Below are positions 6,746 through 50,036 of a stretch of DNA of 64,000 nucleotides, piece after piece (the first letter of the stretch is position 1; each line of letters opens with the position of its first letter). Made by a program: the position numbers and the translations under genes. This stretch comes from Cymodocea nodosa (lineage: Eukaryota > Streptophyta > Magnoliopsida > Alismatales > Cymodoceaceae), in the NCBI GenBank assembly GCA_036874045.1, contig CM072345.1:3931501-3995500 (forward strand). The letters are read 5' to 3'. The notes under the pieces were generated by a model. The model saw nothing but the letters and a program-made list of their open reading frames with translations. It did not search any database and had not been told where the DNA came from.

Positions 6746-6747
6746 AT

Positions 6748-8991
6748 TTAATCTTTTCTCCTAAGTTCATCTACTTCCTTTTGGAGTTTTTCTAATTGTT
6801 GCTCTAATTGGTTTATCCTATCTACAACTCGTATAATTCCTCCAAAAAGGTTCAGCAATCTCTGCAGCATAATAATTTTTGTATTCTTTCATTGAAATGG
6901 CTTTAGATCTTATCCTTTTGGATGCCCATTTCGTGAAATCAATATAGTCCACCATCAACAGTGGAATCAGATCTCCATAATATAATTTCTTTTTCACTAT
7001 TCTCAGCTTGGAGATAAAAATTGCAGACCAATTTATCTAAATTCTGTTCACAACTGCATATGTGACCCATTTGACAAATTGACTCAGTTCTATATCATGA
7101 CCTTGTCGTTGGTAGACATTCTTAATCAAAATGTTAGCTATCATGTGTGCTTTACCATTTAATTGCTTCAATCTATTTAATAATGGCACACCAAGATTGA
7201 TAGCTAAACAATCCTTTATGATCTATTCTATCCACTCGACTGCAGTTGTGCTTTCCAAAATTTCTAGTCCATTCTTTAATCCTAAAATGTTGTGGAGAAG
7301 CTCTGGTGTTATCTATACATCAGCTTACTCCATGTTGGAAATTAATCCTCTTTCTCCTTCTCTTAAGTTTGCATAAAAATAGGACACTAGATTCTCATAT
7401 ACTGCATGTCCTCTTTCTTGAGAAATAAACTGCAGTAGACCTTGGAACTCAAATAAATCCTTAATTTCTTGCATACCGTCCCAATTTACTGGTCTACTGT
7501 AAATGATATCATAACCCCTAATCTCTTGGTATTTATTATATGCTTCTTGACTCCAAAAGTGTACTTCATTCAAAACTATTGTTTCAGTCGGGTCAGGAAT
7601 GTGAATTTGTTGCTCTAGAGGTGTTTGTTCTTGAACTTCCTCTTGCATGTGTTGAACTTGAACTTGCTGAAGATGCTCTAAAGATTCCTGCATTTTTGCT
7701 TTTGCTTTTGACTGTGGTGGTGAGCCAGTAGAACTCTCCACTCTGTCTTGAATTCTGTCCAAAATTTGCTGAAGAGTTCTTTGCTCTTTAATGGAATCTG
7801 TCGAGTCATCTCTTTCCATATATAATTGTTCAGCTTCTTGTTCATTATCTTCTTTTTCTTCTTACTCTTGACTACCAATCTGCAATATCACTGTTCATTT
7901 TGATTCTGTGGTAGATTGGGATGGAGTTACGAGCAAATTAGCTTCTACCCTAATTTCTATTTCTTCTTCTTGTACTGGTTGTAGACTAGTTTCAACATGT
8001 TTCTCTTCTTCTCTTTGCTCTTGCTGCTGCTGCTCTTGCTCCTCCTCAGAATTGAATAGTAGGTTTACAAAACTCAGCTCTACAGGCCCTATTGATATTT
8101 GCATCTTAGATTTAATCTCTTCTTGATGTTCAGGCACTATCTCTTTTCCTTTCCTTCTTCTGATTAATTGTGCATGGTCTTCCTCTTCTTCTTTTGAGAT
8201 TAAATCTATAAAAATAGGCTCTATAGGCATTTGAGCCATAAGTACTAGCTCTTCCTGTTTAACTTTTTCCATAATTACTGGTCTCGAAGGACCAGCTTCA
8301 GCTCCTCTTGTAGTAGGTCTGGCAGTAGCTTCTTGATGCTATTCTACTTTAATTTTATATTGGGCTTTCAACTTTTCTACAGCCCTCTTTTTGCACCGTG
8401 CATCAAACACCATATGTGCTCTACTGCCAACTCTTCTGGTTCTCCTTGGTCTTTTCCTATTTGAACCAGTTCTTGAAATTCTCTTTTTTTTTCCTAAGTA
8501 GAAGGCCCCAAAATTGATGCTCTTTCTAACGGCCTTAGTGGTGGAACTAAAGGTTCTGGCTACTGTTCCTCAGGAACAGATCTTTCAGTAGTTAGCTCCT
8601 CTTGTTCTTCAGTTTCCAGTTCTTCATTTTCTTTCCTTTGTTGCTCCCAGATTGCCCACTGAGCTTGTCTACCTATGCATCTTTTGAACTAGAGGCGGGA
8701 CTTACGTTGGATTAGTTCTAGGGCAACTTTGTTATTTGGCCTGATTTTTCTCTCTCTACTTACAGCAACTTCCATAGCAACTTTGATTCTAGTTTCCATA
8801 ATCTGAGGTATTTGTATACCCAAATCTACTAACACTTTTCTCTAGTAGAAAAGGTCAGATTCTACCTTTTGTAACTCTTTTTCCCTTGTCGTATTCCTGA
8901 TTTTTTGCCTTGTGTGACATTCCACCGAATCTTTGAGAAATTCTGACATGTCAACTGCATTTTCCCAGAACTCGGGTGTCATCTTCCTCAT
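6748..8991 (-). pseudogene. E1 ORF3: plant-transposon-domain protein, homologous to Sirevirus ORF3
   Basis: The span begins with an ATG at 8989-8991 (MRKMTPEFWEN) and ends against the purine tract of the LTR. It is about 2.24 kb and broken several times. The N-terminal third is charged (a TRQKIRNTTREKELQKVE-type helix). The middle is Glu/Gln-rich and likely disordered. The C-terminal part (about 7600-6750) carries DLFEFQGLLQF, SYFYANLREGE, KLYYGDLIPLL and RSKAISMKEYKNY. The same order of motifs occurs in ORF3 of the Ty1/copia elements A1-A3. The FYANL stretch recalls the 'putative plant transposon protein' family of Athila-type elements. No signal peptide or membrane segment is evident, so I do not call it an envelope. 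Its function is unknown. Confidence 0.65.
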
Positions 8992-9724: not shown

Positions 9725-11090
9725 CTAAGTGAAGCTCAAGTAATCCTCTACTCTTACTTCTTCTACAATTCCAAAGGAACTTTTTGGTATTTTCAAAATA
9801 GGACTAAGTCTTTGTCCATTTACTTTAAATATATTCTAATTTTTAGGATTTTCAATTTCAATAGCTCCGTAGGGATAAATATTTCAAACTATGTATGGTC
9901 CTGCCCATCTAGATCTTAATTTTCCTAAATGATTATGGAGTCTAGTCATGTAAAGATATACTTCTTGTCCTATTTCAAAGGTTTTTGGAATAATTTTCCT
10001 ATCATGCCAAAACTTCATTTTCTCTTACAATTTTTGAATAAGCTTCATTCTTAAATTCTTCTAATTCAATCAATTATATTTTTCTATTCTCAACAACTTG
10101 ATTTAAATTAGTGTTCAGAGTTTTTAATGCCCAATAAGCTTTATGTTCAATTTCAATTGGTAAATGACAACTTTTTCCATATACTAGCCTAAAAGGTGAC
10201 ATACCTACGCTTGTCTTATAAGCAGTTCTATTAGCCCAAAGTGCATCTATCAATCTATTAGTCCAATCTGTTCTAGTAGGATTTACTACTTTTTCTAAGA
10301 TTAACTTAATTTGTTTGTTTGCACTTTCTACTTGTCCACTTGTTTGCGGATGATATGATGTTGCAATTTTGTGGTTTACTCCATATTTCTTCATTAAGGC
10401 TTCAAAACTTCTATTACAGAAATGAGTTCCTCTATCACTGATAATTTAGGTATTCCAAATCTGGCAATTATATTGGTTCTTATAAAATGTATTACCACTT
10501 TGTTGTCATTAGTTTTTGTAGGAATAGCTTTTATCCATTTAAATACATAATCCACCCCCAACAATATATAATTAAATTGATTAGACATAGGAAATGGACC
10601 TATAAAATCTATTCCCCACACATCAAAGATTTCAACCTCAACAATAGGATTAAGAGTCAGCATATTTCTCTTTGATATTCTTCCTATTTGTTGACATTTT
10701 TAATAACTTAAGCAATATTTATGAGCATCTTTGAATAGTGTTGGCTAATAAAATCCACATTGCAGAATTTTAATAGCAGTTTTCTTTGAACCAAAATGCC
10801 CTCTACATGTTTGATCATGGTAGAAAGACAATATGCACTGATATTCAGTTTCTAGAACACACCTCCTTAAAACCAGATCAGGACATTTCTTAAATAAGTA
10901 TGGGTCTTCCCAATAGTAATATTTTACTCTTGAAAAGAACAATTTCTTATGTTGTCTATTCCAATCCTTAGGTGTTAAACCAGTAATTAAGTAATTAACT
11001 ATGTCTACATACCAAGGCATCGTGTTGATGGTCATTAATTGTTCATCAGGAAAATTATCCTTAATTTCAATATTTGATTTTTCTATTTAT
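9725..11090 (-). pseudogene. E1 integrase region
   Basis: Ty3/gypsy integrase, which inserts the element cDNA into the chromosome. The zinc-binding part lies at about 11035-10745 (FYHDQTCRGHFG, the H..GHFG pattern). The catalytic core includes VWGIDFIGPFPMS at about 10620 and [15 protein letters not shown] at about 10340, the latter ending at the expected Glu-containing helix. A C-terminal piece (9725-10070) ends with a motif like VNGQRLSPILK. No chromodomain is seen. The region is broken. Confidence 0.8.
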
Positions 11091-12480
11091 AATCTTGATA
11101 AATGATCTACTACTACATTCTCACAACCTTTTTTATCTTTAATTTCTAGATGAAATTCTTGTAATAATAATATCCATCGAATCAATCTAGGTTTGGTCAC
11201 TTTCTATGCTATTAGGTGTTTTAAAGTTGAATGATCCGTGTATACTATCACTTTAGCTCCAATCAAATATGATCTAAACTTTTCTAAGGCAAATACAACA
11301 GCTAACAGCTCTTTTTCAGTAGTTGTATAGTTAACTAGAGCATCATTTAAGGTTTTGCTTGCATAATGAATCACTCTAGGAGATTTTTTTATCTTTTGTC
11401 CCAACACTACTCCTACACCAAAATCAGATGCATCACACATTAATTCAAATGGATGGCTCCAATCAGGTGCTTGAATTATAGGAGTTGAAATTAAGCTAGT
11501 TTTAAGCTTGAAAAATGCTTCTTTGCAATTTTTATCAAAATTGAATGGGACATCTTTTAATAGATTGGTTAAAGGTTTAGCTATTTTGCTAAAGTCTTTA
11601 ATAAATCTTCTATAAAATCCAGCATGTCCTAGAAATGATCTAATATCTTTTACTAATTTAGGTTCTGGTAGATTAGAAATTACTTCTATTTTAGCTTTAT
11701 CTACTTCCAACCCTTTCTTTGAAACATGTCCCAAGACTATTTCTTGTTTAACCATAAAGTGACATTTTTCCCAATTTAGAACCAGACTTTTTCCACACAG
11801 TATTTTAATACTTGGTCTAAATTATTTAAACACACTTCATATCAAGTTCCATAAACAGTAAAATCATCTATAAATATTTCTAAAAAATCTTCAGTCATTC
11901 TAGTGAATATGCCCTGCATACACCTTTGAAAGGTGGCTGGTGCATTGCATAATCTGAATGGCATTCTCTTAAAAGCATAAGTTCCATTAGGACAAGTGAA
12001 AGTTATTTTCTCTCTTATCCTCTAATGCTATTGGGACTTGGTTATATCCTGAATACTCATCTAGGAAACAAAAATATTCTTGCCTTGCTAATTTCTCTAG
12101 CATTTGATCTATGAAAGGTAAGGGAAAATGATATTTCCTAGTCACTACATTCAACTTTCTATAGTCTATACACACTCTCCAGCCTGATTGAATTCTAATA
12201 GGTATCAAGTCGTGACTTTCATTCCTAATAACTGTTAATCTTGATTTCTTAGGAACTACATGGATTGGGCTAACCCATGAGCTATCAGATATCGAATAAA
12301 TTATGTCATTATCTAACCATTTAACTATTTCCCTCTTGACTACTTCTTTAAGGTTTGGATTTAATCTCCTCTCAGGAATTCTAACAGGTTTAGCATTCTC
12401 TTCCACATATATGTGGTGACAGCATAAAGTTGCACTTAACTCTTTTATATCAGTCATAGTCCATCCTATTGCTTCTTTAT
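11091..12480 (-). pseudogene. E1 reverse transcriptase and RNase H region
   Basis: Gypsy RT: GWRVCIDYRKLN at about 12180 (fingers), FLDEYSGYNQVPIA at about 12050, then the thumb/connection motif SFLGHAGFYRRFIKDFS at about 11620. RNase H follows ([45 protein letters not shown]). The intact frames are 11987-12457 and 11204-11755. The region is broken in a few places. The same region is in E2 at 45260-46624. Confidence 0.85.
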
Positions 12481-12619
12481 AAGTTTTGACTACATCTTTT
12501 AATTTAGCAATTTGATCCTTTTTTAAAACTGAAGCAATAATGATTGGACATGTTCATTTTTCTTCCAAAAATATATAGGTTAATTCAAGAGATAAAGGTT
12601 TTAATTCTAATTGTTGCCC

Positions 12620-13640
12620 ATCAGAAGCTAGAGCTCCTAATTGAACATCATCATTTTCTAAATTAATTTCTTCCTAATCTCCTTCTAGATTTATGCTTTC
12701 ACTTTCCTCTAAAGATTCAGAATTGAGTTGCCTATTTAACTCTTCTTGAATCACATCATCTAGCATATCTCCTTCATCCTCAAAAAAATCTATGATATGT
12801 AAGGACATTTCTAACTCCTTAAACTTTTCTGGTTTGAAAATGTTTAATTGAGTATCCTCATTACCATATGCTAACTTCATTACTCTAGTTTTATAATTAA
12901 TAATAGCCCCTGATGTTGCCAAAAATGGTCTTCCCAAAATTAAAGATGTATCACTATTTTTATGCTTAATTTGTTGGGAATCCAAAATTACAATATCAAT
13001 AGGATATATGAAGTTTTTTATTTTAATTAAGACATCTTCTATTTTTCCTCTAGGGTATCTTATACTTCTATCAGCTAATTGAATAACAGTCCTAGTAGGG
13101 ATTAAGCCTTCTAATCCTAAGGATGCAAATATATCACTTGGCATAACATTTATACCTGCACCTAAGTCTATTAAGGTTCTTTCTAGAATGGTATTTCCTA
13201 TGGTGCATGATATAACACGGATTCCAGGATTAGATAACTTTTTAGGAATTTGTGGTAGAAATAGGGAACTACTTTGCTCAGCTAAAAAGATTTTCCTTAA
13301 AACTTTTCGCTCTCTTTTCTTAGTACACTAATCATTAAGAAATTTAGCACAAGGTGGCATTTTCTGCAATAAATCTAATAAAGGAATGTTAACTTGTACT
13401 TTTTCAAAAATTTCTCTAATTTCTTCTTATTTTTCAGGAAATGTTTGTTGTAATCTTTCAGGATAGGGATCTAATGATTGTGATTTAAAAAATTCTTTTT
13501 CTTTCATTTGATTTCTTTGATCATTTTTAGTCTCATTTGCATATTCGGATTTTTCTTCATTGATTTCTATATTTTCAGATATTACATTTTCGTTATCATT
13601 TTGATTTTTGTTCTTATCCACCTTCATATTATTTTCGTTT
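12620..13640 (-). pseudogene. E1 protease region
   Basis: An aspartic protease-like domain of gypsy elements: LIDLGAGINVMPSDIFASLG (about 13170-13110), where the D-G-A triad sits in the usual place as DLGAG, and SLILGRPFLATSGAII (about 12940-12890). An Asn/Lys/Glu-rich linker lies upstream (13427-13627). The copy in E2 is 59790-60851. The region is broken. Confidence 0.75.
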
Positions 13641-17685: not shown

Positions 17686-19926
17686 ATGGTCTCCAAGTTC
17701 TACAAAGGTCGTGGTAGAGGAAAAGGAATAGAGAATGATGAAGTTCCACGTACTTGGTTCAAGAAAATATTTCGAGTGGACAAAAGGTTAGTAGAAATTT
17801 ATAGTGAATATTTCTTTCCTGAAGGTATACTAAATGAAGTTAGACAAGAACTCCAAAATACTGATGCTAGTATTACATACATGGGGATTCGAAGTAAATT
17901 TGATAGAGAATACAGAATGAAATGTGCTGAGATTGCATTTTTGGAACAGTATGTAAAATATTTGTAAAAAGGTGTAGGTTCATCAAATAGAACTCCTCAA
18001 ACTCCTATAAATGGTACAAGACTACAAGCATTTAAGGAAGAGTATGAATCAGCTATCCCTACTCCTTTATATTCAAAACAAGTAGAATCAGATATTGCTG
18101 TAGACAAAACAAAAGTTTACAGTCTTCGAAAGGCCGTTGCAATAGAAAGTGCCTTAGAAGAATTAAAGCAGAAAACTTTTATGGAGCAATTTGAAAAGAA
18201 AACATCAATACTTGAAAAGGAGAAACAGAAATGTTATAGAAGAAGGAAAGTTACAAAAATTATGTCTAAGGAAACAAAGTCTATTGAAAAAGGAGAATCA
18301 GATGAAAATTTATTTCCAAAGGACAATGTATGTCTAGACATTGTACCTTATTGTGCATCTAATAAATTCATCAGTTCCGAACACACTAAAACTGATGAAG
18401 ATAATGAGACTTTATTTTCCCTTGCTAGAAAGCTTGAGAAGAAATACAAGTCAAATATGAGCTCAAGTTTTTCTATCAGTACAAGTCTTGATGATGCAGA
18501 AATTAACAAATCAAAGCATCAGGCACTTGACATTGAACAAGTTATTGCAGATATAATTGACAATGTTGAAGCAGTAACTAGTTCACAAGCTGAATTGTCT
18601 GGAGTAGCAGATATTGAAAATGTTAAGACTCCAAAAGAGTTAAAAGTTAACTAGCCTTCTACAGAATCTATAGAAGTAGAGTCTGAGAATTCACAGAATG
18701 AATCAATGGAATTATCTGTTGAACAAAATGAACAATTACAGACAGATACACCGACTGTAGAATTTGTGGAAAAATTGAACTCTGAACATTCTATAGAGAC
18801 TGAACAGATGAATGTTGAGCATACTGACAATGTTCCTAACACTGTTGAAGCTGAAGAATCAAGCTTACTTGAGTAGCTTCAAGATAATATTTTGGAAGAG
18901 GAACAACATGACATTCATTTTGAAGAAGAGGTTCCTAAAGATGAATTAAACTCTGAATCACGGCTTCAGGTATCACCTTCTTTGTATACAATATTAAAAA
19001 TTCAAGGTAATGCAATTCATTTTAGATCTGAAGAAGCATTGTAGAAATACAATAATCTAATTACATGTCAGATTCTGCATGCTTGTCCAATAAAATTTAG
19101 AAATTTGATGGAAATAAGAGATCTGCTTGAGTTTCAAGGCCTCATTAAATTCTTGCCAGTAGGAAAGAAATGGAAGCAATACATAGAGCTTATTGCAGCT
19201 TTTTATAGCAAACTGGTCAAGAATGGAAATTTTCTGAAAACTCAAATAAATGAACAGGAGTTTATATTGTCTCCTGAGTTAATTTTTGAAGTTTTAGGAT
19301 TAAAGAATGAAGGTATTGTTGTTACCAACAGATTTGACATGATAAGACAACTGGAATGGAACATTCAGTCTTTATCAAAAATTCCAGATGTATATTCTGA
19401 AATGAGATTAATGGAAAATCTGAATGTAGAGGCAAGGTTTATTGCAAATATATTGCATGCAAATTTATTTCAAAGAGTTGTACATAATTTGGAAGTCAGT
19501 AGAAGTTATTTATATGCAACTTATGGCCTGCTGAATAGAATTCAAATAAATTGGTTTGATGTTTTTATGTCTCAATTACAACATATGAGTTCAAAGTTAT
19601 TTTATGGTGATGTTGTATGTAGAATCCTTGCAAGCCAATTGACTTTATCCAACTAGCCCTCTGAAACTAAAGGCATGAGAGCATTTAGTGTCAAATATTT
19701 GCAAAAATTCCAAACCATGCATAAACCTCAACGACAACAACAACACCAACAACCTGATACAGACCATATACAACAACAACAACAAAGTTATTCAGTTCAA
19801 GCAGAACAACAAACCTAGCTACCTCCTGACTTAGATGCAGTGTTTAACGACATCAGAAATGATATTAAGCATCTAGGAGATAAAATATGTAATGCTATAA
19901 GTGATATACTTAGGAGGGGTCGGTAA
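17686..19926 (+). pseudogene. A1 ORF3 (post-pol gene of family A)
   Basis: It starts MVSKFYKGRGRGKG at 17686. In order: a short basic Gly/Arg/Lys-rich N-terminus; a helical region (RTWFKKIFRVDKRL; DASITYMGIRSKFDREYRMK); a basic patch (KEKQKCYRRRKVTKIMSKE); a long acidic Ser/Glu-rich middle; a C-terminal domain (about 18990-19700) with DLLEFQGLIKFLP, FILSPELIFEVLGL, NRIQINWFDVF and KLFYGD; a Gln-rich tract; and a small tail ending ISDILRRGR. Its length of about 2.24 kb matches the gypsy ORF3 of E1. The copy is broken a few times. I see no signal peptide or membrane segment. Confidence 0.65.
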
Positions 19927-20346
19927 CTGTTTTTGTTTATTTCTGAATACAAAATGTAATGTTTATATTACTTGTTTGATTCATTGAACAATACATTTTT
20001 ATGTAAATGTGTTCAATTATTATTCTTGTTTACAGAAATCGTTGTTGTAATTCTCTTATATATATATATATATTCTCTGTAATTATCTTTTTGATTAATG
20101 ACAAAAAGGGGGAGAAATATTATAAAAAGATGATTATGATCTTAATTGCATATATATATTATAAAAGGAGATGCTATTTAAATGGTTATTGTAATCTGAC
20201 AGATGATAATTAGAAAACTGATACTTATATAATTATTGACATTTGAGAGTTTTAGTTTTGAGAGGTAAAATTTACACAAACAATAGAAATAAGTTTAAGT
20301 CATAATTGATTTAATATGGTTTTGTCATCATCAAAAAGGGGGAGAT
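19927..20346 (+). other. A1 3' noncoding region with two polypurine tracts
   Basis: AAAAAGGGGGAGA occurs at about 20103-20115 and again at 20333-20345, the second one base before the 3' LTR. Duplicate polypurine tracts upstream of the 3' LTR are, from memory, a Sirevirus hallmark. A 68-codon frame (20007-20213) with a hydrophobic run spans the first tract and is kept in A2 and A3. Confidence 0.75.
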
Positions 20347-27701: not shown

Positions 27702-28319
27702 TGTTGAGTATTTTTTTGATGATGTGTGCTGAATGAAAATAATCATATTTGCTCAATTACTATTGCTTGTGAAAAGAAATTAAAATCAGCCATTAATACA
27801 GAAAAAGCTTACTGATATAAATACTTGTCTGTATTGGATCTGAAGTTAACATCTAGTCGTTTCATTGCATTAATTTCTCATTTAGCTAAACATTAAGTTA
27901 ATGTGTGTTTTTATTGAAAACCATGATATGTTTTAATGTTATATCTTCTGTATCATGAACAGTGCACGTTTAGACAACTCGTTAAGTTAGAGTTTTGTTT
28001 CTATAGAGGTCACGTGAGAACTCGTTAAATTAGAGGCTTAAAGGTTAAAATAGGTCACGTGATAACTCGTTAAGTTAGTGAGTAAAAGAATAGACGAACT
28101 TGTTAACTTAGTGTTATACACGTGGTGAAATTATAAGTTACGATTGTTGTATTGTATCACGTGAGGTGCACATGTTTAACTTGTTAAGTTAACATAACTA
28201 AACGCGTTGAGTTGCTATATTGAACACTAAGGCAACGCGTTAGGTTAGCATTATAAACTTAAGTTGTTATTTTTGCATGTGGTAAAATTCTTATTATAAA
28301 AATATTTGTTTATTACTGG

Positions 28320-28427
28320 TTCGTTGAGTTATCATAACACAATGGAAATAGTTCGTTGAGTTATCATAACACAACGGAGATGGTTCGTTGAGATAGCATA
28401 ACACCACGGACTTAGTTCGTTGAGTTA
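28320..28427 (+). repeat. Four half-sites at exact 32-bp spacing
   Basis: TTCGTTGAGTTA at 28320, 28352 and 28416, with a two-base variant (TTCGTTGAGATA) at 28384. Each of the first three is followed after a short gap by a partial inverse (ATAACACAACGGA type). The same 32-bp period holds in A3 (49036, 49068, 49100, 49132). Confidence 0.9.
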
Positions 28428-28879
28428 GCTACAGTACTTGTCACGTGAAATGGCACATGAGGAACTCGTTAAGTTATATATATACTTGTGTTATTTGTTT
28501 AGTTAACATTAAAGTAATGACTTCTTATTAAATTGATGAAAAACTTTTGGACGAGAAAGTTTATTTTGCAGGAAATTTTTCAGAGATCCAGGACTGATGA
28601 TTAAAGAAAATTCAAAATATAAACGTGGGTTAGAACGTGTGTGTTTCGATGAAGGAAAAAGAAAAGATGTGGAGAAGTGGAAAACTGGTAGTGGTTAAAC
28701 ATGAAGGATATGCATGAAAAGAAGATATAGTATAAAAGGCATAGAATTCTCGTTGATCAATTTATCCTTGCACACAAAATGAAAAATCTTTTCAAGGATC
28801 AAACCATCCCTACACACCAAAAGAAAAATCTTTTTCAGGGATCAAAAACACCTTCTCGGGGAAAATCTCTCAAGTGGAA

Positions 28880-28995
28880 GAAAGTTCAGTAAAGCATAAA
28901 AATGTAAGATTTTTGTCACTGAAGATTTGAAGTATCAGAAGAAAGCAAATTCGGTGAAGCATGAAAAGATAAGATATTCGTCACTGAAGAATTGC
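28880..28995 (+). repeat. Tandem leader duplication in the A2 LTR
   Basis: Two adjacent units of about 60 bp, each reading approximately TTCRGTGAAGCATRAAAA, then a TCGTCACTGAAGA motif. A0b has three. A purine-rich GAA/AAG tract follows (28998-29030). A shorter repeat, gcacac-aaaa-gaaaaatctttt, lies just upstream (28770-28850). Confidence 0.75.
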
Positions 28996-29308
28996 TGAAG
29001 AAGAAAAAGAAGAAAAAGAAGAAGAAGAAAGATCTCAAATAGGGAGAAAAGTTTTAAATTCCGCAAATTAGTTTTCTCTATTTGTAGTTATGAAATTGTT
29101 TAGATGATACATGGTATTAAAATATAATTGCATCTACAATTTCTGAGGAGAATTGAATTATATATTGTAATTGAAACCTTGAATAAAAATGATTTTATGA
29201 AAACAATGTCTCGACTTGTTTTTGAGTTTTAAAGTTTCAATTATATTACAGAAAATATTAAAAATACACAATTCACCCCCCTCTTGTGTAGCCATACGAT
29301 CCTACAAG

Positions 29309-29320
29309 TGGTATCAGAGC
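29309..29320 (+). other. Primer-binding site of A2
   Basis: TGGTATCAGAGC two bases after the 5' LTR, complementary to the 3' end of initiator Met tRNA. Confidence 0.92.
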
Positions 29321-29505
29321 TTTGTGAATAATCTTTGATATAAAATCGATACCAACTTATTTAATATCATTCTTATTCTACCTTCCTTGTTTTTAAACAG
29401 AAATTAATATCTGAGCATACGTTTAACTCTATTGATTTAAGGCTCAAGTTGTTTTAAAGTTTTTAGACTGTTTAAAATCAAATAGGTTGAAAAATCTAAG
29501 GTAAG

Positions 29506-30969
29506 ATGGCTACTGGAAATGGTAATTCTTATTTGTATGAAGGCCAAAATCTTAATCGTCCTCCTTTATTTGATGGAATACATTTTGAATATTGGAAATA
29601 TAGGATGACTGTTTTTCTTCAAAGTATAGATCATAAGTTGTGGTTCATGATTTCTAAACCATATACTCCGTTAACTACTCCTTATAATACTTGGACAATT
29701 ACTGAAAAAGAAAATGAAACTCTGAATGCTAAGGGCTTAAATATTTTATTTTGTGCATTGAGTTATGAACAGTTCAGTAAAGTGTCGGCATATAAATCTG
29801 CTTATGAGGTGTGGCATGCATTAGAAGTTTCACATGAAGGTACTTCTCAAGTTAAAGAGACAAAAATAAACATGTTGATTCATAAGTATGAACTCTTTAA
29901 GATGCATGAAGATGAAAATATTTCTGAGATGTTTTCCAGATTTCTTGATATCATAAACTCTTTAAAATGTTTAGGAAAGAATTTTGAACAGAAGGATTTG
30001 GTAAGGAAAATTCTTAGATCCCTAAGTTCTAAATGGTCTCAGAAAGTAACATCAATTGAGGAATCACGAGATTTAAATGTTTATACTATGAATGAACTTA
30101 TAGGAAATTTAACAGCTTATGAAGTTCAATTAAATGAATCACTAAGTCACAACAAACTAAAAATGAAGAAAGAAATAACCTTCGAAATTAATTTAGATTC
30201 TGATATATCTACTGATTCTGACGAGGATTTGATTTTGCTGACTAGGAAATTCAAGAAAGCATGGAAAGCTAGGAAACAGCAAAGGAAGAAAAATGATAAA
30301 CCCTCAACGTCAAAATCATTGAATGACAAGAATTCTTCATCCAGAAAGTATGTATGTTACAACTGTAAGAAACCTAGACAACTTTCTCCAGATTGTCCTA
30401 TGAGGAAAAATGAAAAGCAAAGTAGGACAAATCAGAAGAAGACGGCTCAGAAAACTCAGAAAAAGTTTTACAAGAAAAAGTTTTACAAGAAAAAGACTTT
30501 GAAGGTCACTTGGGATGACACGTCTGAAGAGTCTGAATTTGAGGAATCAACATCAAAATCTTCACATTCAGAAGGAGAACAAGAGTTAGAAGACGTTGCT
30601 CATGTGTGCTTCATGGCAGATGTGTCTGAGGTAATATCTAATCCTGAAAGTCATTCAGATTTCAACTTTGTTGAATTATTATGTGCTTATCATGCATTAT
30701 TACAAAAACTTAAAGTATGTAAACTGGAAAATAAGAATATTAGAAAATCTTCATCCATTATGAAAGAAGAAAATTGTTTCCTGTCTACTACTTTAGAAAA
30801 GTTTAAATGTGATAATGAAAATCATGCTAGAGATTTGCAAAAATTTAGATTTAATGAATGTATTTTGCATGAACAAATACAGAATATAAATGCTAAAAAA
30901 TTAAAGATAGAATCTGAAAATGAAATGTTGAGAAACAATATAAATAAACTTGAATTAGAGATAAATTAA
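29506..30969 (+). CDS. A2 gag (487 codons)
   Basis: Begins MATGNGNSYLYEGQNLNRPP. Residues 20-50 are a DUF4219-like start (FDGIHFEYWKYRMTVFLQSI). Residues about 60-210 are a UBN2-type gag domain (YEVWHALEVSHEGTSQVKET; LRSLSSKWSQKVTSIEES). Residues about 280-300 are a zinc-knuckle position (CYNCKK..DCP). After 370 comes a long coiled coil. A Lys-rich basic stretch follows the knuckle. It forms the particle shell in this family. Further gag tail sequence lies at 31056-31765. Sirevirus gags are long, and this agrees. Confidence 0.88.
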   Translation: MATGNGNSYLYEGQNLNRPPLFDGIHFEYWKYRMTVFLQSIDHKLWFMISKPYTPLTTPYNTWTITEKENETLNAKGLNILFCALSYEQFSKVSAYKSAYEVWHALEVSHEGTSQVKETKINMLIHKYELFKMHEDENISEMFSRFLDIINSLKCLGKNFEQKDLVRKILRSLSSKWSQKVTSIEESRDLNVYTMNELIGNLTAYEVQLNESLSHNKLKMKKEITFEINLDSDISTDSDEDLILLTRKFKKAWKARKQQRKKNDKPSTSKSLNDKNSSSRKYVCYNCKKPRQLSPDCPMRKNEKQSRTNQKKTAQKTQKKFYKKKFYKKKTLKVTWDDTSEESEFEESTSKSSHSEGEQELEDVAHVCFMADVSEVISNPESHSDFNFVELLCAYHALLQKLKVCKLENKNIRKSSSIMKEENCFLSTTLEKFKCDNENHARDLQKFRFNECILHEQIQNINAKKLKIESENEMLRNNINKLELEIN

Positions 30970-31765
30970 AACTGAGAGAGCAAGATTTAAATTCTACCTT
31001 TGAGAAATGGAATTTAAGTCAAACTAAGTTAGACAAACTAACTAGTACCCCTGCGGTGTCTTATAAATTTGGCTTAGGATTTGATTATCTTGAATATCCT
31101 GAATCTCAAGCTAATAAAGGATTTATTAGTTGTAGTTCAAGTAAATCTAAGACTAAAATTCCTTTTATTATGAAACAAGGTAATAAATATGTAGAAGTAG
31201 GTACTTCAAGGGATGAATCATGCAGTAATAATATAAATCAATGTGATTTGCCAAATTGTACTTCTAACATGACTATTCTAAAAATCTTGTTTCTTGTTCT
31301 GGAAATTCAGTTTCTAATGTTTCTAAAATTTCAGACAATTGTAGTAAACTGAAAATTCAGAAACCTGAGCATGTAATTCAATACACTGGTATTAGACCAA
31401 ATACTCATTCTACATGTGATAAAACAAAAAATTCTAGTGCAGAAAAAGATTTTGTATGTACGGAAAATTTTAATACAAGTACAAAATCTTGGTATGAACT
31501 TACTGAAGTGTATAAGCATGACCAAAATAAATTAACTGATAAAAATATGTTTGGTCATGATTATACTACATCTGAAAACAAAAAGAATAATTGCAAAAGC
31601 AATAATGCTATATGTGAGTATGAAGCTAATGATAAATCAATAGTACTTACAACTAATAAGAATATAAATGAAAATGTTAAACTATTTTTAAACAAAAAGA
31701 AGAAATATGCGTTTAATGAACTTGGTCCTCAACAACATTGGGTACCAAGAAAAAGTTTTTCTTAA
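30970..31765 (+). pseudogene. A2 gag C-terminal region
   Basis: It continues the gag of this family: SYKFGLGFDYLEYPESQANK motif, KTKIPFIMKQGNKYVEVGTS, an Asn/Cys/Lys-rich stretch, and an end FNELGPQQHWVPRKSFS just before the protease. Broken. Confidence 0.75.
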
Positions 31766-31769
31766 TTTG

Positions 31770-32000
31770 TTGCAGGAGGAAACAACATCACAATGGATCT
31801 TGGACACTAGAGCGTCAAGTCACATGATCGGACAAAAAAGTCTATTACAAAATTTTACAAATACCATGAAAGGAAGTGTAACATTTGGAAACAAATGCAA
31901 AGATAAAATCATAGGTATGGGCAATGTTCAAATAACTCCTACTTGTGTTATTTCGAATGTACTTTTTGTAGAATACCTAGTTTTTAATTTGCTGAGTGTC
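31770..32000 (+). pseudogene. A2 protease region
   Basis: A copia protease start: WILDTRASSHMIGQKSLLQN at the usual active-site place, followed by SVTFGNKCKDKIIGMGNVQ and a LSVI-type end. It matches the A0 protease at 15200-15370. Broken. Confidence 0.75.
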
Positions 32001-32822
32001 ATAAATGGATAAAGGTATATTTTTAAATCAGGAAAAATATGCAGATGAAATGCTTAAGAAATTTAATTTTAATGATACAAGGATTCGAGGAACTCCTATG
32101 AGTACTACTTTAAAGTTAGATATTGATGACATAGGAAAATCTATAGATCAAAGAAAATACAGAAGTATGATTGGTTCTTTACTTTATTTGACTTCTAGTA
32201 GACCTGATATTATGTTTGCTGTGTGTGTTTGTGCTAAATTTCAATCTAATCCTAAGGAATCACACTTAATTGCAGTTAAAAGAATATTTAGATATATACA
32301 AGGAACTAAAAATTTCAGACTGTATTATTCTAAGGATAGTTCAATAGATCTTATAGGATATACTTATGCTGATTATGTAGGATCTAAATCTGATAGAAAG
32401 AGTACCAATGGCACATGTCAATTATTGGGAAATAATTTGGTGTCATGGTTTAGTAAAAGCAAAACTGTGTAGCACTTTCTACTACAGAAGCTGAATATGT
32501 TGCTGCTGCATTGTGTTGCACTCAGATTCTGTGGATAAGGCAAACTTTAGAAGATTCTGGATTATCTTATGATACAACTGAGATTTATTGTGACAATAGT
32601 TCTACAATAAATCTTTCCAAAAATCCTGTATTACATTCAAGAGCAAAGCATATAGAGGTTAGACATCATTTTCTAAGAGATAGCGTAATTAAAGGAAAAA
32701 TTAAATTAGAATTTGTGTCTAGTAAAAATCAATTAGCTGATATATTTACAAAACCTCTAGACGAAAATACATTTTGCAACATTAGATTAAATTTAGGTAT
32801 TTGTAGGCTATGTGATGTGTAA
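32001..32822 (+). pseudogene. A2 RT end and RNase H region
   Basis: RT thumb/connection: YRSMIGSLLYLTSSRPDIMF, then HLIAVKRIFRYIQGTKNF. RNase H: YADYVGSKSDRKSTNGTCQL, then TTEAEYVAAALCC-type and KHIEVRHHFLRDSVIKGKI, ending QLADIFTKPLDE and CRLCDV. It degrades RNA in RNA-DNA hybrids in functional relatives. Broken. Confidence 0.85.
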
Positions 32823-34407
32823 AATGCTTAAACTCCACATAAAAAGATAAATATTATTGATATTGTTCACCTCATAGATATTATATACTTATTATAAATA
32901 TCTAAAGTAATATCTAAACTGCTGCTTAAGATACTATGTATTTATTGTAAAATCATAGTAGTATCTTATTGATTTTAAGTAGTTTATCAATTTTAATGGT
33001 TTTTACGATTTTAAGTGAAAATGTAAATGAAAAACATTAAATACTTCTGACATTCTGAAATTTTGATTAAATGTTTTCTTTGAATCAAGGAAAATGCATA
33101 TGATCATGCATAAATTTGACTTAATTGATTAAACTTGTAGAATAAGTTATATGTAACTCATCTTAAACTGTTAATCAAAAGTATAAGCTTATTGAAACTA
33201 ATTCATATTTTTAGTACAATCATAGAAGTAAAAATTGTATGAGATTTGTGTTTTATTGCATCTGTATTAATGGAATACATATATACTGTGCTTAAAATGA
33301 AAAGTGCTTACAAAGTAAAAATCTTTGAGAGTTTATTGATTAGTTTGATCACGAGCCTTTTGTACTTGAGCAGATAGGTATGTAAGGATTGTTGTCCTAA
33401 AAAAGGATTCTTTAAATCTGGCAACCTAAGGTCCTGATCAAATTTGGGATTGTTGACTGAAAGCTCATTACACGGGTACATTAGAAAGCTCTTGTATGAT
33501 TCAAGCTTTTCAAACTAACTTTTAAAGAAAATTATCAATATTTACTGTTTTGAGAAGAAAAGTTGTTTCATTAATTACAGATATCTTTGAATCGCATATA
33601 GTTTATACCTATATGACTACTGATTTATTGAATCAACATTAGTACTTTTGAAAACGTTTATTTGAGATACATTCTTTTATTCTCCTTGAATTAATCGAAT
33701 TGAGTTCAAAGTTGTGTTTTGATTCATATACAGTAGGAATTGATTCTGGAAATCATTTTTGATGATGTCAGGATAACAGAAGTCTCTGAAAAGAAAATGT
33801 AAAAGTATAGTTATACTTAACATCTATTGTCACTACAAGTATATTTTGTATTTTGATTGACTATATTTGAAGTATATTTGTAGGGGGAGCATTAACAATG
33901 TCAAAAACTGATTAATATAATTTAAAATACAAATCTTAGTTAATCTGAATTAATGTCCTCTTAAAATCTTGATGAAATAATTTAAAAAGACAAATAAACT
34001 ATTTTAGATTCAAAGGACAAAATGTTCAAATAGTTTACTATGTTCTCAAGATAATGTTATGTTTTAGCATGTGTGTTGTTTTTGGAACGTTTTAGTTGGA
34101 AGCATCCAAAAATTGTTTTAAGTGTACTAACTAGACGTTATGTTAGATAAGGTAACGTGTAAAACTGCCTCAAGACAGCGTTTTACTCGTTAGGTTAGTT
34201 AACTCAACGAGTTATACTTGAATATTTCGGGTACTTTGATTGAATAAGCTTTATTTGATATTTATTTTATTTCTAAACCCGACTTCTCTTCACGTTGAGT
34301 TATACGCCTAAAAACCCTATTTAAACACTTATTACACGGGGACTTAGGTTATTTGTAAACTTTGTCAAGAAAATCTTTCCCGCTAGTTGTTGTTACAACC
34401 TGCAACG
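32823..34407 (+). other. A2 spacer between pol and ORF3, with ORF3 promoter-like region
   Basis: 1.6 kb without coding capacity, kept in A3 (53599-55186) and, in part, in A1 and fragment X. It holds a G-rich tract (tagggggagc, about 33881-33890), then actcgttaggtta and taactcaacgagtta (34200-34214), and TATTTAAA at 34318-34325, 83 bp before the ORF3 ATG. Its conservation suggests a promoter or a splice acceptor for ORF3. Confidence 0.6.
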
Positions 34408-36670
34408 ATGGTCTCTAAGTTCTACAAAGGTCGTGGCAGAGGAAAAGGCAAAAGTGGAAGTGATGCAAAAGGAAAAGAAATAGAGAATGATGAAGTTCCA
34501 TGTACTTGGTTCAAGAAAATATTTCAAGTGGACAAAAGGTTAGAAGAACTTTATAGAGATTACTTCTTTTCTCAGGATATATTAGATGAAGTTAGACAAG
34601 AACTTCAACATACTGATGCAAGTATCACATACATGGGTATTCGAAGTAAATACGATAGAGAATATAGAATGAAATGTGCTGAGATTGCATTTTTGGAATA
34701 GTATGCAAAATATTTCGAAAAAGGTGTAGGTTCATCAAATAGAACTCCTCAAACTCCTATAAACAGTACAAGACTACATGTATTTGAGGAAGAGCATGAA
34801 TCAACTATCCCTACTCCTTTTTATTCAAAACAAGTAGAATCAGATATTGCTGTAGACAAAACAAAAGTTGACAGTCTTCGAAAGTTCATTGCAATAGAAA
34901 GTGCCTTAGAAGAATTAAAGCAGAAAACTTTTATGGAGCAATTTGAAAAGAAAACAGCAATACTTGAAAAGGAGAAATAGAAATGTTATAGAAGAAGGAA
35001 AGTTAGAAAAATTATGTCTAAGGAAACAAAGTCTTTTGAAAAAGGAAAATCAGAGGAAAATTTATTTCCAAAGGACAATGTATGTCTAGACATTATACCT
35101 TATTGTGCATCTGATAAATTCCTCAGTTCCGAACACACTAAAACTGATGAAGATAATGAGACTTTATTTTCCTTTGCTAGAAAACTTGAGAAGAAATCCA
35201 CGTCAAATATGAGCTCAAGTTTTTCTATTAGTACAAGTCCTGATGATACAGAAATTGACAAATAAGAGCATCAAGCACCTGACATTGAACAAGTTATTGC
35301 AGATATAATTGACAATGTTGAGTCAGTAACTAGTTTAAAGGCTGACTTGTCTAGAGTAGCAGATATTGAAAATGTTAAGACTCCAAAAGAGCAAAAAGTT
35401 AACCAGCCTTCTACGGAATCTATAGAAGCAGAGTCTGAGAATTCACAGCATGAATCAATGGAAATATCTATTGAACAAAATGAACAATTACAGACAGATA
35501 CACCGGCTGTAGAATTTGTGGAAAAATTGTACTCTGAACATTCTATAGAGACTGAACAGATGAATGTTGAGCATATTGACAATGTTCCTAACATTGTTGA
35601 AGCTGAAGAATCAAGCTTACCTAAGTAGCTTCAAGATAATATTTTGGAAGAGGAACAACATGACATTCATTTTGAAGAAGAGGTTCTTGAAGATGAATTA
35701 AACTCTGAATCACGGCTTCAGGTATCACCTTCTTTGTATACAATATTAAAAATTCAAGGTAATGCAATTCATTTTAGATTTGAAGAAGCATTGTAGAAAT
35801 AAAATAATCTAATTACATGTCAGATTCTACATGCTTGTCCAATAAAATTCAGAAATTTGATGGAAATAAGAGATCTGCTTGAGTTTCAAGGCCTCATTAA
35901 ATTCTTGCCAGTAGGAACGAAATGGAAGCAATACATAGAGCTTATTGCAGCTTTTTATAGCAAACTGGTCAAGAATGGAAATTTTCTGAAAACTCAAATA
36001 AATGAACAGGAGTTTATATTGTCTCCTGAGTTAATTTTTGAAGTTTTTGGATTAAAGAATGAAGGTGTTGTTGTTACCAACAGATTTGACATAATAAGAC
36101 AACTGGAATGGAACATTCAGTCTTTATCAAAAATTCCAGATGTATATTTTGAAATGAGATTAATGGAAAATCTGAATGCAGAGGCAAGGTTTATTGCAAA
36201 TATATTGCATGCAAATTTATTTCAGAGAGTTGGACACAATATGGAAGTCAGCAGAAGTTGTTTATATGCAACTTATAGCTTGCTGAATAGAATTCAAATA
36301 AATTGGTTTGATGTTTTCATTTCTCAACTACAGCATATGAGTTCAAAGTTATTTTATGGTGATGCTGTATGTAGAATCCTTGCAAGCCAATTGACTTTAT
36401 CCGATTTACCCTCTAAAACTAAAGGCATGAGAGCATTTAGTGTCAAAGATTTGCAAAAATTCCAGGCCATGCATAAACCTCAACGACAACAACAACAACA
36501 ACCTGATACAGACCATATACAACAACAACAAAGTTATTCAGTTCAAGCAGAATAGTAAACCCAGCTACCTCCTGACTTAGATGTAGTGCTTAACGACATC
36601 AGAATTGATATTAGGCATCTAGGAGATAAAATATGTAATGCTATAAGTGATATACTTAGGAGTGGTCGAA
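34408..36670 (+). pseudogene. A2 ORF3
   Basis: The same layout as in A1: basic Gly/Arg start (MVSKFYKGRGRGKGKSGSDA), helical region, basic patch, acidic Ser/Glu-rich middle, and C-terminal domain (frame 35857-36555: DLLEFQGLIKFLPVGTKW, FILSPELIFEVFGL, NRIQINWFDVF, KLFYGD, RAFSVKDLQKF), then a Gln-rich tract and short tail. Its last intact frame covers most of the domain shared with the gypsy ORF3. Broken a few times. Confidence 0.68.
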
Positions 36671-37168
36671 AATTGTTTTTGTTTGTTTCTGAATACAAAA
36701 TGTAATGTTTGTATTACTTGTTTGATTCATTGTACAATACATTTTTCTGTAAATGTGTTCAATTATTATTCTTGTTTACAGAAATCATTGTTGTAATTCT
36801 CTTATATACATATATATATTCTCTGTAATTATCTTTTTGATTAATGACAAAAAGGGGGAGAAATATTATAAAAAGATGATTATGATCTTAATTGCATATA
36901 TATATTATAAAAGGAGATGCTATTTAAATGGTTATTGTAATCTGACAGATGATAATTAGAAAACTGATACTTATATAATTATTGACATCTGAGAGTTTTA
37001 GTTTTGAGAGGTAAAATTTACACAAACAATAGAAATAAGCTTAAAAGAACTTAAGTCAACAAACAAGTTTGTTGAATTAAAAGTTAACCCAACGAAGGTG
37101 CTTTGTTGAGTTAAACATATTTCATAATTGATTTAATATGGTTTTGTCATCATCAAAAAGGGGGAGAT
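36671..37168 (+). other. A2 3' noncoding region with two polypurine tracts
   Basis: AAAAAGGGGGAGA at about 36849-36861 and 37155-37167, the second abutting the 3' LTR. A 68-codon frame (36753-36959) spans the first tract. Between them lies a half-site pair (gttaacccaacgaa, 37083-37096; ttgttgagttaa). Confidence 0.78.
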
Positions 37169-38787
37169 TGTTGAGTATTTTTTTGATGATGTTTGCTGAA
37201 TGAAAATAATCATATTTGCTCAATTACTATTGCTTGTGAAAAGAAATTAAAATCATCAATTAATACAAAAAAATCTTACTGATATAAATACTTGTCTATA
37301 TTGGATCTGAAGTTAATATCTAGTTATTTCGTTGCATTAATTTCTCATTTAACTAAACGTTAAGTTAACGTGTGTTTTTATTGAAAAGCATGATATGTTT
37401 TAATGTTATATCTTCTCTATCATGAACAGTGCATGTTTAGACAACTCGTTAAGTTAGAGTTTTGTTTGTATAGAGGTCACGTGAGAACTCGTTAAATTAG
37501 AGGCTTAAAAGTTAAAATAGGTCACGTGATAACTCGTTAAGTTAGTGAGTAAAAGAAGAGACAAACTCGTTAAGTTAGTGTTATACACGTGGTGAAATTA
37601 TAAGTTATGAATGTTGTATTGTATCACGTGAGGTGCACATGTTTAACTTGTTAAGTTAACATAACTAAATGCATTGAGTTGCTATATTGAACACTAAGGC
37701 AACGCGTTAGGTTAGCGTTATAAACTTAAGTTGTTATTTTTGCACGTGGTAAAATTCTTATTATAAAAACATTTGTTTATTACTGGTTCGTTGAGTTATC
37801 ATAACACAACGGAAATGGTTCGTTGAGTTATCATAACACAACGGAGATGGTTCGTTGAGATAACATAACACCACAGACTTAGTTCGTTGAGTTAGCTACA
37901 GTACTTGTCACGTGAAATGGCACATGAGGAACTCGTTAAGTTAGAAACGTTAAGTTATTTATATACTTGTGTTACTCGTTTAGTTAACATTAAAGTAACG
38001 ACTTCTTATTACACTGATGAAAAACTTTTGGACGAGAAAGTTTATTTTGCAGGAAATTTTTCAGAGATCCAGGACTGATGATTAAAGAAAATTCAAAATA
38101 TAAACGTGGGTTAGAACGTGTGTGTTTCGATGAAGGAAAAAGAAAAGATGTGGAGAAGTGGAAAACTGGTAGTGGTTAAACATGAAGGATATGCATGAAA
38201 AGAAAATACAGTATAAAAGGCATAGAATTCTCATTGATCAATTTATCCTTGCACACAAAACGAAAAATCTTTTCAAGGATCAAACCATCCCTGCACACCA
38301 AAAGAAAAATCTTTTTCAAGGATCAAAAACACCTTCTCGGGGAAAATCTCTCAAGTGGAAGAAAGTTCAGTGAAGCATAAAAAGGTAAGATTTTCGTCAC
38401 TAAAGATTTGAAGTATTAGAAGAAATCAAATTCGGTGAAGCATGAAAAGAGAAGATATTTGTCACTGAAGAATTGCTGAAGAAAAAAAAGAAGAAAAAGA
38501 AGAAGAAGAAAGATCTCAAACAAGGAGAAAACTTTTAAATTCCGCAAATTAGATTTCTCTATTTGTAGTTATGAAATTGTTTAGATGATACATGGTATCG
38601 AAATATAATTGCATCTACAATTTCTGAGGAGAATTGAATTGTATATTGTAATTGAAACCTTGAATAAAAATGATTTTATGAAAACAATGTCTCGACTTGT
38701 TTTTGAGTTTTAAAGTTTCAATTATATTACAGAAAATATTAAAAATACACAATTCACCCCCCTCTTGTATAGCCATACGATCCTACA
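37169..38787 (+). repeat. 3' LTR of A2 (1619 bp)
   Basis: TGTTGAGTATTTT .. GATCCTACA. Same organisation as the 5' LTR, including G-boxes, 32-bp phased half-sites (from about 37785), the TATA box and the leader repeats. Confidence 0.92.
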
Positions 38788-41925: not shown

Positions 41926-43185
41926 TTAATCTTTCTTCCTAAGTTCATCTACTTCCTTCTAGAGCTTTTCTAATTGTTGTTCTAATTGATTGATATGCTC
42001 AGCAGCTCCTATAATGTCTCTAGAAAGTCTAGCTATCGAAACAACAGCTACAGCATTATAATTTTTATATTCCTTGACTGAAATGGCTCTAAATCGTATC
42101 CTCTTGGATGTCCATTTTGTGAAGTCAATACTGTCCACCATCAGTAGTGGAAGCAAATCTCCATAAAATAATTTTTTTTGTGCTACTCTCAACTTGGAGA
42201 TAAAAACTAAAGGTCAGTTTACTTTAATCTTGTTCACAACTACATATGTAGCCCATTTAAGAAACTAACTTAATTCTATATCATGGCCTTGTCGTTGGTA
42301 GACATTTTTAATCAAATGTTAGCTACCATGTGTACTTTACCATTTAAGTACTTCAATCTATTTAATAATGGCACATCAAGATTAATAGCTAAATAGTCTT
42401 TTATTTCCAGTTCTGTCCACTCAACTACAGTTGTGCTCTCTAGAATTTCAATTCCTTCATTTTTCAATCCAAAAATATTGTAGAGAAGCTCTGGTGTTAG
42501 AAATTAATCATCTTTCTCCTTCTCTCAAATTGGCATAAAAACAAGGCACTAGATTTTCATATACTACATGCCCTCTCTACTGAAAAAAAACTATTAGTAG
42601 ACCCTGGAACTCAAATAAGTCCTTAATTTCCTACACATCGTCCTAGTTTACTGGGCTACTGTATATAATATCATAACCACTAATATTTTGATATTTAGTC
42701 ATTGCTTCTTGACTCTAAAAATATACTTCATTTAGAACTTGCCGTAGGGAAGGGTCAAGAATTTGAATTTGTTCCTCTATTAGGGTTTGTTCTTGAATTT
42801 CTTCTTTAATTTGCTGAACTTGAGTTTGTTGGAAATGATCCAAAGATTCCTACATTTCAGCTCCTCTTTCTATCTGTCTCACAAACTAGAGTTGTGACTT
42901 GCACTGGATTAACTCTAAGGCAACCTTGTTGTTTAGTCTAATTTTTCTTTCTCTATTTACAACTACTTCTGTTGCTACTTTAATCTTCGTTTTCACAATC
43001 TGAGGTATTCTAATATCTAAATCAACCAAAACTTTTCTCTAGTAGATGATGTCAAATTCTACCTTTTCTAGTTCTTTCTCCCATATCGTGTTCCTAATCT
43101 TTTGTCTTGTATGCCATTCCTCAAACTCTTTGAGAAATCTTATAGTGTCAATTGCCTCCCAGAACTCTAGTGTTATCTTGTCTTC
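41926..43185 (-). pseudogene. E2 ORF3 remnant
   Basis: Same family as E1 ORF3 but shorter. The N-terminal helix (KIRNTIWEKELEKVE-type) is at 43150-42900. C-terminal pieces include a frame at 41959-42192 with KKLFYGDLLPLLMV, KWTSKRIRFRAISVKEYKNY and a final coiled coil HINQLEQQLEKL. KLFYGD is identical in the copia ORF3. Broken. Confidence 0.6.
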
Positions 43186-43520
43186 GTGGTGTGACGGAGT
43201 GGAACGGAATTGCACTAATCTCTACTATTCTAAGTTCTAAATGATTCTGCAGATAATGCCCCCCAAATCCTAAGTTTTAGTATAAATAAACCCTAAGTTT
43301 TTTATGGGTAATTGGGTCATTTTCCTATGCAAACTCTCGCTCTCTCACTCACTTCTCCGTGGAGTTATAGTTAACTCCACAGACTTAGTCTGTGGACTTA
43401 ACTACAGTACTTCGTTGAGTTACAATTAACTCAAAAGAGTAAGTTCGTCAACTTATCCTAAACTCAACGGAGTAAGTTTGTTGAGTTAAGCGTAACTCAA
43501 CGAACCTCCCATAAAGTTAT
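43186..43520 (-). promoter_or_regulatory. Half-site array and TATA-like box upstream of E2 ORF3
   Basis: The minus strand has GTTTATTTATACTAAAAC at about 43279-43296 and an array of half-sites at 43365-43505 (ttcgttgagtt, actcaacgga, ttgttgagtta). It is the counterpart of 9085-9320 in E1. Confidence 0.48.
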
Positions 43521-48412: not shown

Positions 48413-50034
48413 CTTGTTGAGTATTTTTGTTTTGATGATGTGTGCAGAATGAAAATAATCATATTTGTTCAATTACTATTGCTTGTGAAAAGAAATTAAA
48501 ATCATCAATTAATACAGAAAAAGCTTACTGATATAAATACTTGTCTGTATTGGATCTTAAGTTAACATCTAGTCGTTTCGTTGCATTAATTTCTCATTTA
48601 GCTAAACGTTAAGTTAACGTGTGTTTTTATTGAAAAGCATGATATGTTTTAATGTTATATCTTCTGTATCATGAACAGTGCACGTTTAGACCACTCGTTA
48701 AGTTAGAGTTTTGTTTGTATAGAGGTCATGTGAGAACTCGTTAAGTTAGAGGCTTAAAGGTTAAAATAGGTCACGTGATAACTCGTTAAGTTAGTGAGTA
48801 AAAGAATAGACGAACTCGTTAAGTTAGTGTTATACACGTGGTGAAATTATAAGTTACGAATGTTCTATTGTATCATGTGAGGTGCACATGTTTAACTCAT
48901 TAAGTTAACATAACTAAACGCATTGAGTTGCTATATTGAACACTAAGGCAACGCGTTAGGTTAGCGTTATAAACTTAAGTTGTTATTTTTGCATGTGTTA
49001 AAATTCTTATTATAAAAACATTTATTTATTACTGGTTCGTTGAGATATCATAACACAACGGAAATGGTTCGTTGAGTTATCATAACACAATGGAGATGGT
49101 TCGTTGAGATAGCATAACACCACAGACTTAGTTCGTTGAATTAGCTACAGTACTTGACACGTGAAATGGCACATGAGGAACTCGTTAAGTTAGAAACGTT
49201 AAGTTATATATATACTTGTGTTACTCGTTTAGTTAACATTAAAGTAACAACTTCTTATTACACTGAGAAAAATTTTTGGACGAGAAAATTTATTTTTAGG
49301 AAATTTTTCAAAGATCCAGGACTGATGATTAAAGAAAATTCGAAATATAAACGTGGGTTAGAACGTGTGTGTTTCGATGAAGGAAAAAGAAAAAGACGTG
49401 GAGAAGTGGAAAACTGGTAGTGGTTAAACCTGAAGGATATACATGAAATGAAGATACAGTATAAAAGGCATAGAATTCTCATTGATCAATTTATCCTTGC
49501 ACACAAAAAGAAAAATCTTTTCAAAGATAAACCATCCATGCACACCAAAAGAAAAATCTTTTTCAAGGATCAAAAACCCCTTCTCAGGAAAAATCTCTCA
49601 AGTGGAAGAAAGTTCAGTGAAGCATAAAAAGGTAAGATTTTCGTCACTGAAGATTTGAAGTAACAGAAGAAAGCAAATTCGGTGAAGCATGAAAAGACAA
49701 GATATTCGTCACTGAAGAATTGCTGAAGAAGAAAAAGAAGAAAAAGAAGAAGAAGAAAGATCTCAAACAGGGAGAAAAGTTTTAAATTCCGCAAATTAGT
49801 TTTCTCTGTTTGTAGTTATGAAATTGTTTAGATGATACATGGTATCGAAATAAAATTGCATCTACAATTTCTAAGGAGAATTGAATTGTATATTGTAATT
49901 GAAACCTTGAATAAAAATGATTTTATGAAAACAATGTCTCGACTTGTTTTTGAGTTTTAAAGTTTCAATTATATATCAGAAAATATTAAAAATACACAAT
50001 TCACCCCCCTCTTATGTAGCCATACGATCCTACA
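48413..50034 (+). repeat. 5' LTR of A3 (1622 bp)
   Basis: TGTTGAGTATTTTTG .. GATCCTACA. Phased half-sites lie at 49036, 49068, 49100 and 49132. TATAAAA is at 49460-49466, followed by leader repeats (49610-49735). Confidence 0.92.
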
Positions 50035-50036
50035 AG

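Follow-up and report, generated by a model that had tools for sequence, protein, structure and literature searches.

The C-terminal domain of an extra gene behind pol, here called ORF3, is common to two Ty3/gypsy and three Ty1/copia elements that lie together in a 64,000-nucleotide stretch of Cymodocea nodosa DNA (the window). Sequence comparison confirms the predicted homology of the last approximately 235 residues of ORF3 in the gypsy copies (E1 and E2) and the copia copies (A1 to A3); the homology reaches this domain and not demonstrably the whole of ORF3. Ty1/copia and Ty3/gypsy split very early in evolution. A related extra gene in both superfamilies suggests that it was passed around or was taken from one source. 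With modest confidence, we favor the reading that ORF3 is a cassette that passed anciently between LTR-retrotransposon lineages and then diverged, and that it encodes a helper protein, soluble and probably nuclear. The sequence evidence comes from one window, and exchange, a single capture that was passed on and independent captures were ranked by argument; that a transfer took place at all we infer, as we do its direction and age.

Elements of the window and their ORF3 genes

Self-BLAST showed many nested insertions in the window and, together with Pfam matches, placed E1 and E2 on the minus strand and A1-A3 on the plus strand. None of the five is intact, and each has a gene behind what is left of its pol. 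E1 occupies approximately 4.2-13.6 kb and E2 39.4-46.6 kb (self-BLAST, Pfam); a protease stretch at 59.8-60.8 kb we take as the continuation of E2 beyond a nested element. The E1 pol (10077..13327, minus strand) is made up of protease (12677-13327), RT (11990-12553), RNase H (11207-11821) and integrase (from 10077), as placed by Pfam matches that lie under their cut-offs for protease, RT and integrase (rve) and well above it for RNase H. Both E copies have the gypsy order of protease, RT, RNase H and then integrase, with a gypsy-type RNase H (RT_RNaseH_2 in E1, E 6.7e-31). Judged by integrase motifs, E1 and E2 are putative members of the Athila lineage. Behind the ORF3 of E1 and of E2 comes a gypsy gag, on the same strand and within approximately 1-1.2 kb (4412-6748; 39909-41959), an order that resembles head-to-tail elements with one common LTR; the LTRs of the E elements are not delimited.

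A1 is a truncated copia element. A2 spans 27702..38787, with LTRs at 27702-29306 and 37169-38787, a 5-bp target duplication (27697-27701 and 38788-38792) and a PBS at 29309-29320. A3 spans 48415..59561, with its 5' LTR at 48415-50034, its 3' LTR from 57954, an eroded 3' end and a PBS at 50037-50048. The primer-site sequence is identical in A2 and A3 and is presumably of the tRNA-Met type. Published marks of Sireviruses are a PPT octamer whose first base lies 10 bp ahead of the 3' LTR and further copies of it in the linker. All three A copies carry the octamer on the plus strand at this distance (A1, 20337..20344; A2, 37159-37166; A3, 57944-57951), additional octamers lie in the linker, and the whole window holds 10 octamers where 0.26 are expected, 8 of them on the plus strand in or next to the A elements. 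Sireviruses are further marked by a large gag with a CCHC zinc knuckle and a coiled coil downstream of it; Pfam finds a copia-type gag and a zf-CCHC domain in A3, A1 is without a complete gag inside the window, and RT is missing from A2 and A3. By the octamers, the assignment of A1-A3 to the Sireviruses, made in the original prediction, is supported. Further Sirevirus remains on the minus strand (1476-2250 and 47807-47866) comprise the other 2 octamers and a stretch with 79% identity to the linker that precedes ORF3; near these remains the ORF3 domain was not found by tblastn.

ORF3 of E1 (6748..8991, minus strand) is broken and was read by three-frame translation; it runs from an ATG at 8991 to its end at 6748, with one frame change and in-frame stops between. 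Its C-terminal domain, delimited by tblastn with the A3 domain and by hhalign, lies at 6872..7570. In E2 the ORF3 region (41959..43221, minus strand) is frameshifted and has stops, and tblastn places the domain at 42058..42732 in the pieces 42732-42514, 42500-42315 and 42306-42058. In the middle of ORF3 of E1, approximately 1 kb (7.7-8.7 kb) has no aligned counterpart in E2, and a tandem-repeat search of 5700-9100 found nothing beyond short arrays. On the plus strand, ORF3 is a single frame with internal stops in each of A1 (17686..19926, domain 18997-19710), A2 (34408..36670, domain 35749-36462) and A3 (55187..57457, domain 56528-57241), read from an ATG at 17686, 34408 and 55187, respectively; the longest open stretch in A3 is 582 amino acids. 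ORF3 lies in sense behind pol in gypsy and Sirevirus copies alike, as had been predicted, where for the E copies "after pol" is as far as the placement goes, the 3' LTR being undelimited. The near-equal spans of ORF3 in E1 and A1 (2244 and 2241 bp), which the prediction pointed out, are taken here as a coincidence.

Homology of the C-terminal domain

We searched the window by tblastn, using no more of A3 than its C-terminal domain as query, with the low-complexity filter on and E values up to 1. Five places were found: A1, A2, A3 itself, E1 and E2. The A3 domain matches E1 at 7570-6872 with 32.5% identity over 234 amino acids (136 bits, E 2.7e-39). Its match to E2 falls into three colinear pieces (E 2.9e-26). 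Among 200 controls with a shuffled domain, the top score was 28.9 bits. By BLASTP, A3 matches one E1 piece with E 5e-19, in an alignment that runs partly through the acidic stretch, and two E2 pieces with E 4e-9 and 8e-8. Profile-profile comparison by hhalign, with shallow profiles (Neff about 1), aligned three segments of A and E in the same order (E 4.8e-13, 3.9e-13 and 1.6e-7). The original prediction had started from an ordered set of motifs common to the two ORF3s. These motifs are present where it placed them, read across broken frames, and the profile-profile comparison bears them out; the filtered, domain-alone tblastn match carries the likeness beyond the low-complexity middle.

The match could be an artefact, either because part of one element has inserted into the other, for which the abundant nested insertions in the window would speak, or because low-complexity sequences look alike. 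To this we give next to no credence. Low-complexity similarity was rejected because the match survives both the filter and the restriction of the query to the domain, and a nested fragment because the domain is at the same place in both gypsy copies, has a dN/dS of 0.23 between them and differs strongly between A and E.

Before the domain, A and E are alike in composition, with basic clusters followed by an acidic, Gln/Glu-rich stretch. The N-terminal parts of their ORF3s have no significant similarity (BLASTP best E 0.97), so that homology of these parts was rejected, and the acidic middle, predicted as a common feature, is therefore a likeness of composition only. At the DNA level, blastn of A against E ORF3 gives two short matches, of 18 and 40 nt and in opposite orientation, and a recent transfer between A and E was rejected since there is no in-register DNA similarity. 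A homology this old could also have come down vertically from a gene in the ancestor of Ty1/copia and Ty3/gypsy, lost later from most lineages. We hold this to be very improbable, because the loss would have to be so widespread and because 3' forward ORFs, as far as they are surveyed, are characteristic of SIRE and common in Ogre-Tat-Athila only (PMC6317226).

The A3 domain matches the Pfam family Transposase_32 (PF20167) over domain residues 62-198 (137 aa) with 26.8 bits (E 5.4e-6), below the curated cut-off of 45 bits, and none of five E pieces matches PF20167 at E values up to 10. The A domain thus appears to be distantly related to Transposase_32, and not a member of it; the proposed link to a family of "putative plant transposon proteins" holds for A at this sub-cut-off level and fails for the E pieces. 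The likeness of A and E exceeds the PF20167 match by approximately 57 residues N-terminally and also at the C-terminal end, the E1 match beginning at residue 5 of the A3 domain and running to its end. A weak Pfam match of one E2 piece to Ycf15 (E 0.0059), and matches below cut-off to PLN_propep, PAS and further Pfam families, were judged to be chance. A profile search of solved structures with the domain found no relative, the single match having E 1.5, and AlphaFold2 with an alignment of 8 rows gave a mean pLDDT of 41.8, a fold that is not usable. Among viral contigs and prokaryotic genome contigs, no relatives were confirmed by tblastn.

These matches bear on how two superfamilies came to share the domain. 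The A domain resembles a plant family in which some proteins are labeled "putative transposon", as it would if gypsy elements and Sireviruses had each captured a Transposase_32-like domain independently from host genes or DNA transposons; the dissimilar N-terminal parts of A and E agree with this, and a published survey favors separate acquisition of extra ORFs, or very fast evolution (PMC6317226). We consider two such captures unlikely, yet worth keeping in view. The A-E match outreaches the Pfam match at both ends, and both ORF3s run from basic clusters through an acidic stretch to the domain, at the same place after pol. For exchange between lineages speaks a match of A with E that is far stronger and longer than that of A with Transposase_32 (136 bits over 234 aa against 26.8 bits over 137 aa, a pairwise and a profile score that are not strictly comparable); against it speak the dissimilar N-terminal parts and the E pieces, none of which reaches PF20167.

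Selection and divergence in the gypsy pair

The ORF3 domain of E1 and E2 has a dN of 0.118 and a dS of 0.501, which gives a dN/dS of 0.23 (bootstrap 0.135-0.378, 209 codons). For the pooled pol the values are 0.053, 0.193 and 0.28 (bootstrap 0.193-0.413, 550 codons). Earlier estimates from partly different segments, 0.22-0.29 for ORF3 and 0.32-0.34 for parts of pol and gag, are superseded by these. By this measure, ORF3 in the gypsy pair is shown to have been kept under purifying selection. Among A1-A3 the ORF3 ratios are 0.62, 0.62 and 0.64, with upper bounds of 0.96, 0.95 and 1.04; the signal of selection is weak here, and the decay of the copies since they inserted dilutes it.

Synonymous divergence between E1 and E2 is 2.6 times as high in ORF3 as in pol, a ratio reached in none of 2000 codon permutations. 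The two copies are mosaic, with a block from behind pol through ORF3 that is far more diverged than pol or gag. In 300-base windows, which within 7.6-8.7 kb hold too few aligned bases, identity is 0.755-0.840 from approximately 6.43 to 9.73 kb (41.3-44.0 kb on the E2 side), against 0.872-0.940 at 4.2-6.5 kb and, starting at 9.63 kb, 0.871-0.953. The drop in identity and the excess of dS therefore give the ORF3 block a deeper split than its neighbors, which fits a cassette-like exchange of the block between gypsy subfamilies; it could alternatively have come about by gene conversion of the flanks or by a regional difference in mutation rate. A cassette might pass from one lineage to another when reverse transcription switches templates among co-packaged RNAs, or when nested copies recombine.

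Exchange of extra genes has been described on a smaller scale in Arabidopsis, where Athila families have exchanged env-like genes, in all described cases within Athila (PMC2410132). Bdelloid rotifers offer a wider parallel, since the same types of accessory ORF are found there in retroelements of different classes; the rotifer ORF3 encodes other proteins (GDSL esterase, DEDDy exonuclease) in other hosts (PMC5408684). If the module did move between superfamilies, it would be a plant counterpart of this rotifer sharing, would indicate that unrelated elements have a host target in common, and would weaken the plant-retrovirus reading of these genes.

The ORF3 product and extra genes of other elements

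Genes at the position of ORF3 in Sireviruses and Athila elements have been called envelope genes, and the literature ascribes transmembrane and coiled-coil domains to env-like genes (PMC3414828, PMC2829016). Position and name would thus make ORF3 a retrovirus-like envelope protein, a reading that we find improbable. The usual threshold for a membrane helix in 19-residue hydropathy plots is 1.6. The maxima found here are 0.99 in A1, 0.92 in A2, 1.12 in A3 and 1.37 in E1 (two of its three frames), and no membrane-helix-like peak rises above 1.37 in the whole of A1-A3, these two E1 frames and three E2 pieces; the transmembrane mark of an envelope is thus absent as judged by hydropathy alone, on broken copies. 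A simple pattern search finds basic clusters in the ORF3s of A1, A3 and E1, and these, like the Transposase_32-type match, speak against an envelope. Without a membrane-like peak and with basic clusters, the product is therefore likelier to be a soluble, probably nuclear helper than an envelope. A nuclear role, predicted from the basic clusters and one published prediction, is put forward tentatively. By means of its basic clusters the product might enter the nucleus or bring the pre-integration complex there; its acidic, Gln/Glu-rich middle might act as a flexible linker or as a recruiter, and the C-terminal domain might bind a host factor of chromatin or of silencing. That one module occurs with two unrelated types of pol suggests a host partner, and a host factor bound by the C-terminal domain would explain how one module can serve both machineries.

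The nearest published counterpart on the gypsy side is ORF(+) of sunflower Athila 14, described in 2024 as a 3'-side sense ORF with partial similarity to Transposase_32 (PF20167) and a predicted nuclear location (PMC11728184). Like ORF3 of the E copies, it is a 3' sense ORF of a gypsy element; it is reported from gypsy only, and neither "sirevirus" nor "SIRE" was found in the text of that paper (PMC11728184). The sharing of the gene had been predicted to be undescribed. Its gypsy half, Athila with Transposase_32, is thus in print (PMC11728184); among the matches listed for the open-access literature, there is no report of the Sirevirus half or of a gene common to Sireviruses and gypsy elements.

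On the copia side, ORF3 of the A copies resembles the Sirevirus env-like gene, or SIRE eORF-3'F, in lying in sense in the linker behind pol; the passages that describe this gene do not state a relation to a gypsy gene (PMC2829016, PMC3414828, PMC6317226, PMC4093653). In one survey, eORF-3'F was present in 74% of SIRE elements, and SIRE extra ORFs fell into 19 groups that resembled one another little or not at all by BLAST, which led its authors to independent acquisition or very fast evolution (PMC6317226). Legume and tomato Sirevirus env-like proteins likewise have weak mutual similarity (PMC4093653), and among gypsy env-like proteins, which are little alike, only those of Calypso and Cyclops-2 were seen as homologous (PMC1142308). 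Where Sireviruses and some gypsy elements obtained their env-like gene has been called unknown (PMC3414828). The same paper attributes transmembrane and coiled-coil domains to the Sirevirus genes, which speaks in general against a non-envelope role. The common domain makes the origin testable, by running a profile of it over classified elements and comparing its tree with that of RT. Mobile-element-type domains in extra ORFs of plant LTR-retrotransposons are likewise known from Ogre (plant mobile domain) and Retand (Transposase_28) (PMC6317226, PMC11963269, PMC9289625), both of which belong to Pfam families other than PF20167. A screen of 121 genomes listed 15 atypical domains, in gypsy only, after well-described ones, including those of ATHILA, had been filtered out (PMC9289625).

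A2 (31692-32822) and A3 (52562-53598) have one common internal deletion, which joins the start of the protease directly to RNase H and removes integrase and RT, with gag and ORF3 kept. Since the deletion is the same in both, the deleted form was copied. The join is better evidence of it than the missing RT, because RT was probed with a sequence of a different copia lineage. In keeping gag and ORF3, A2 and A3 are the Sirevirus counterpart of the pol-less Athila elements of Arabidopsis, in which gag and env are kept under purifying selection (PMC2410132). A copia fragment at 13783-15386 (minus strand), whose pol start and the A3 pol start have 90% identity over 71 amino acids and which keeps parts of integrase, is likely a relative of the A elements without the deletion. 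Two other copia elements lie at 22249-25292 (minus strand) and 62237-63995 (plus strand); the latter, which runs off the window, encodes a gag that shares 43% identity with the A3 gag.
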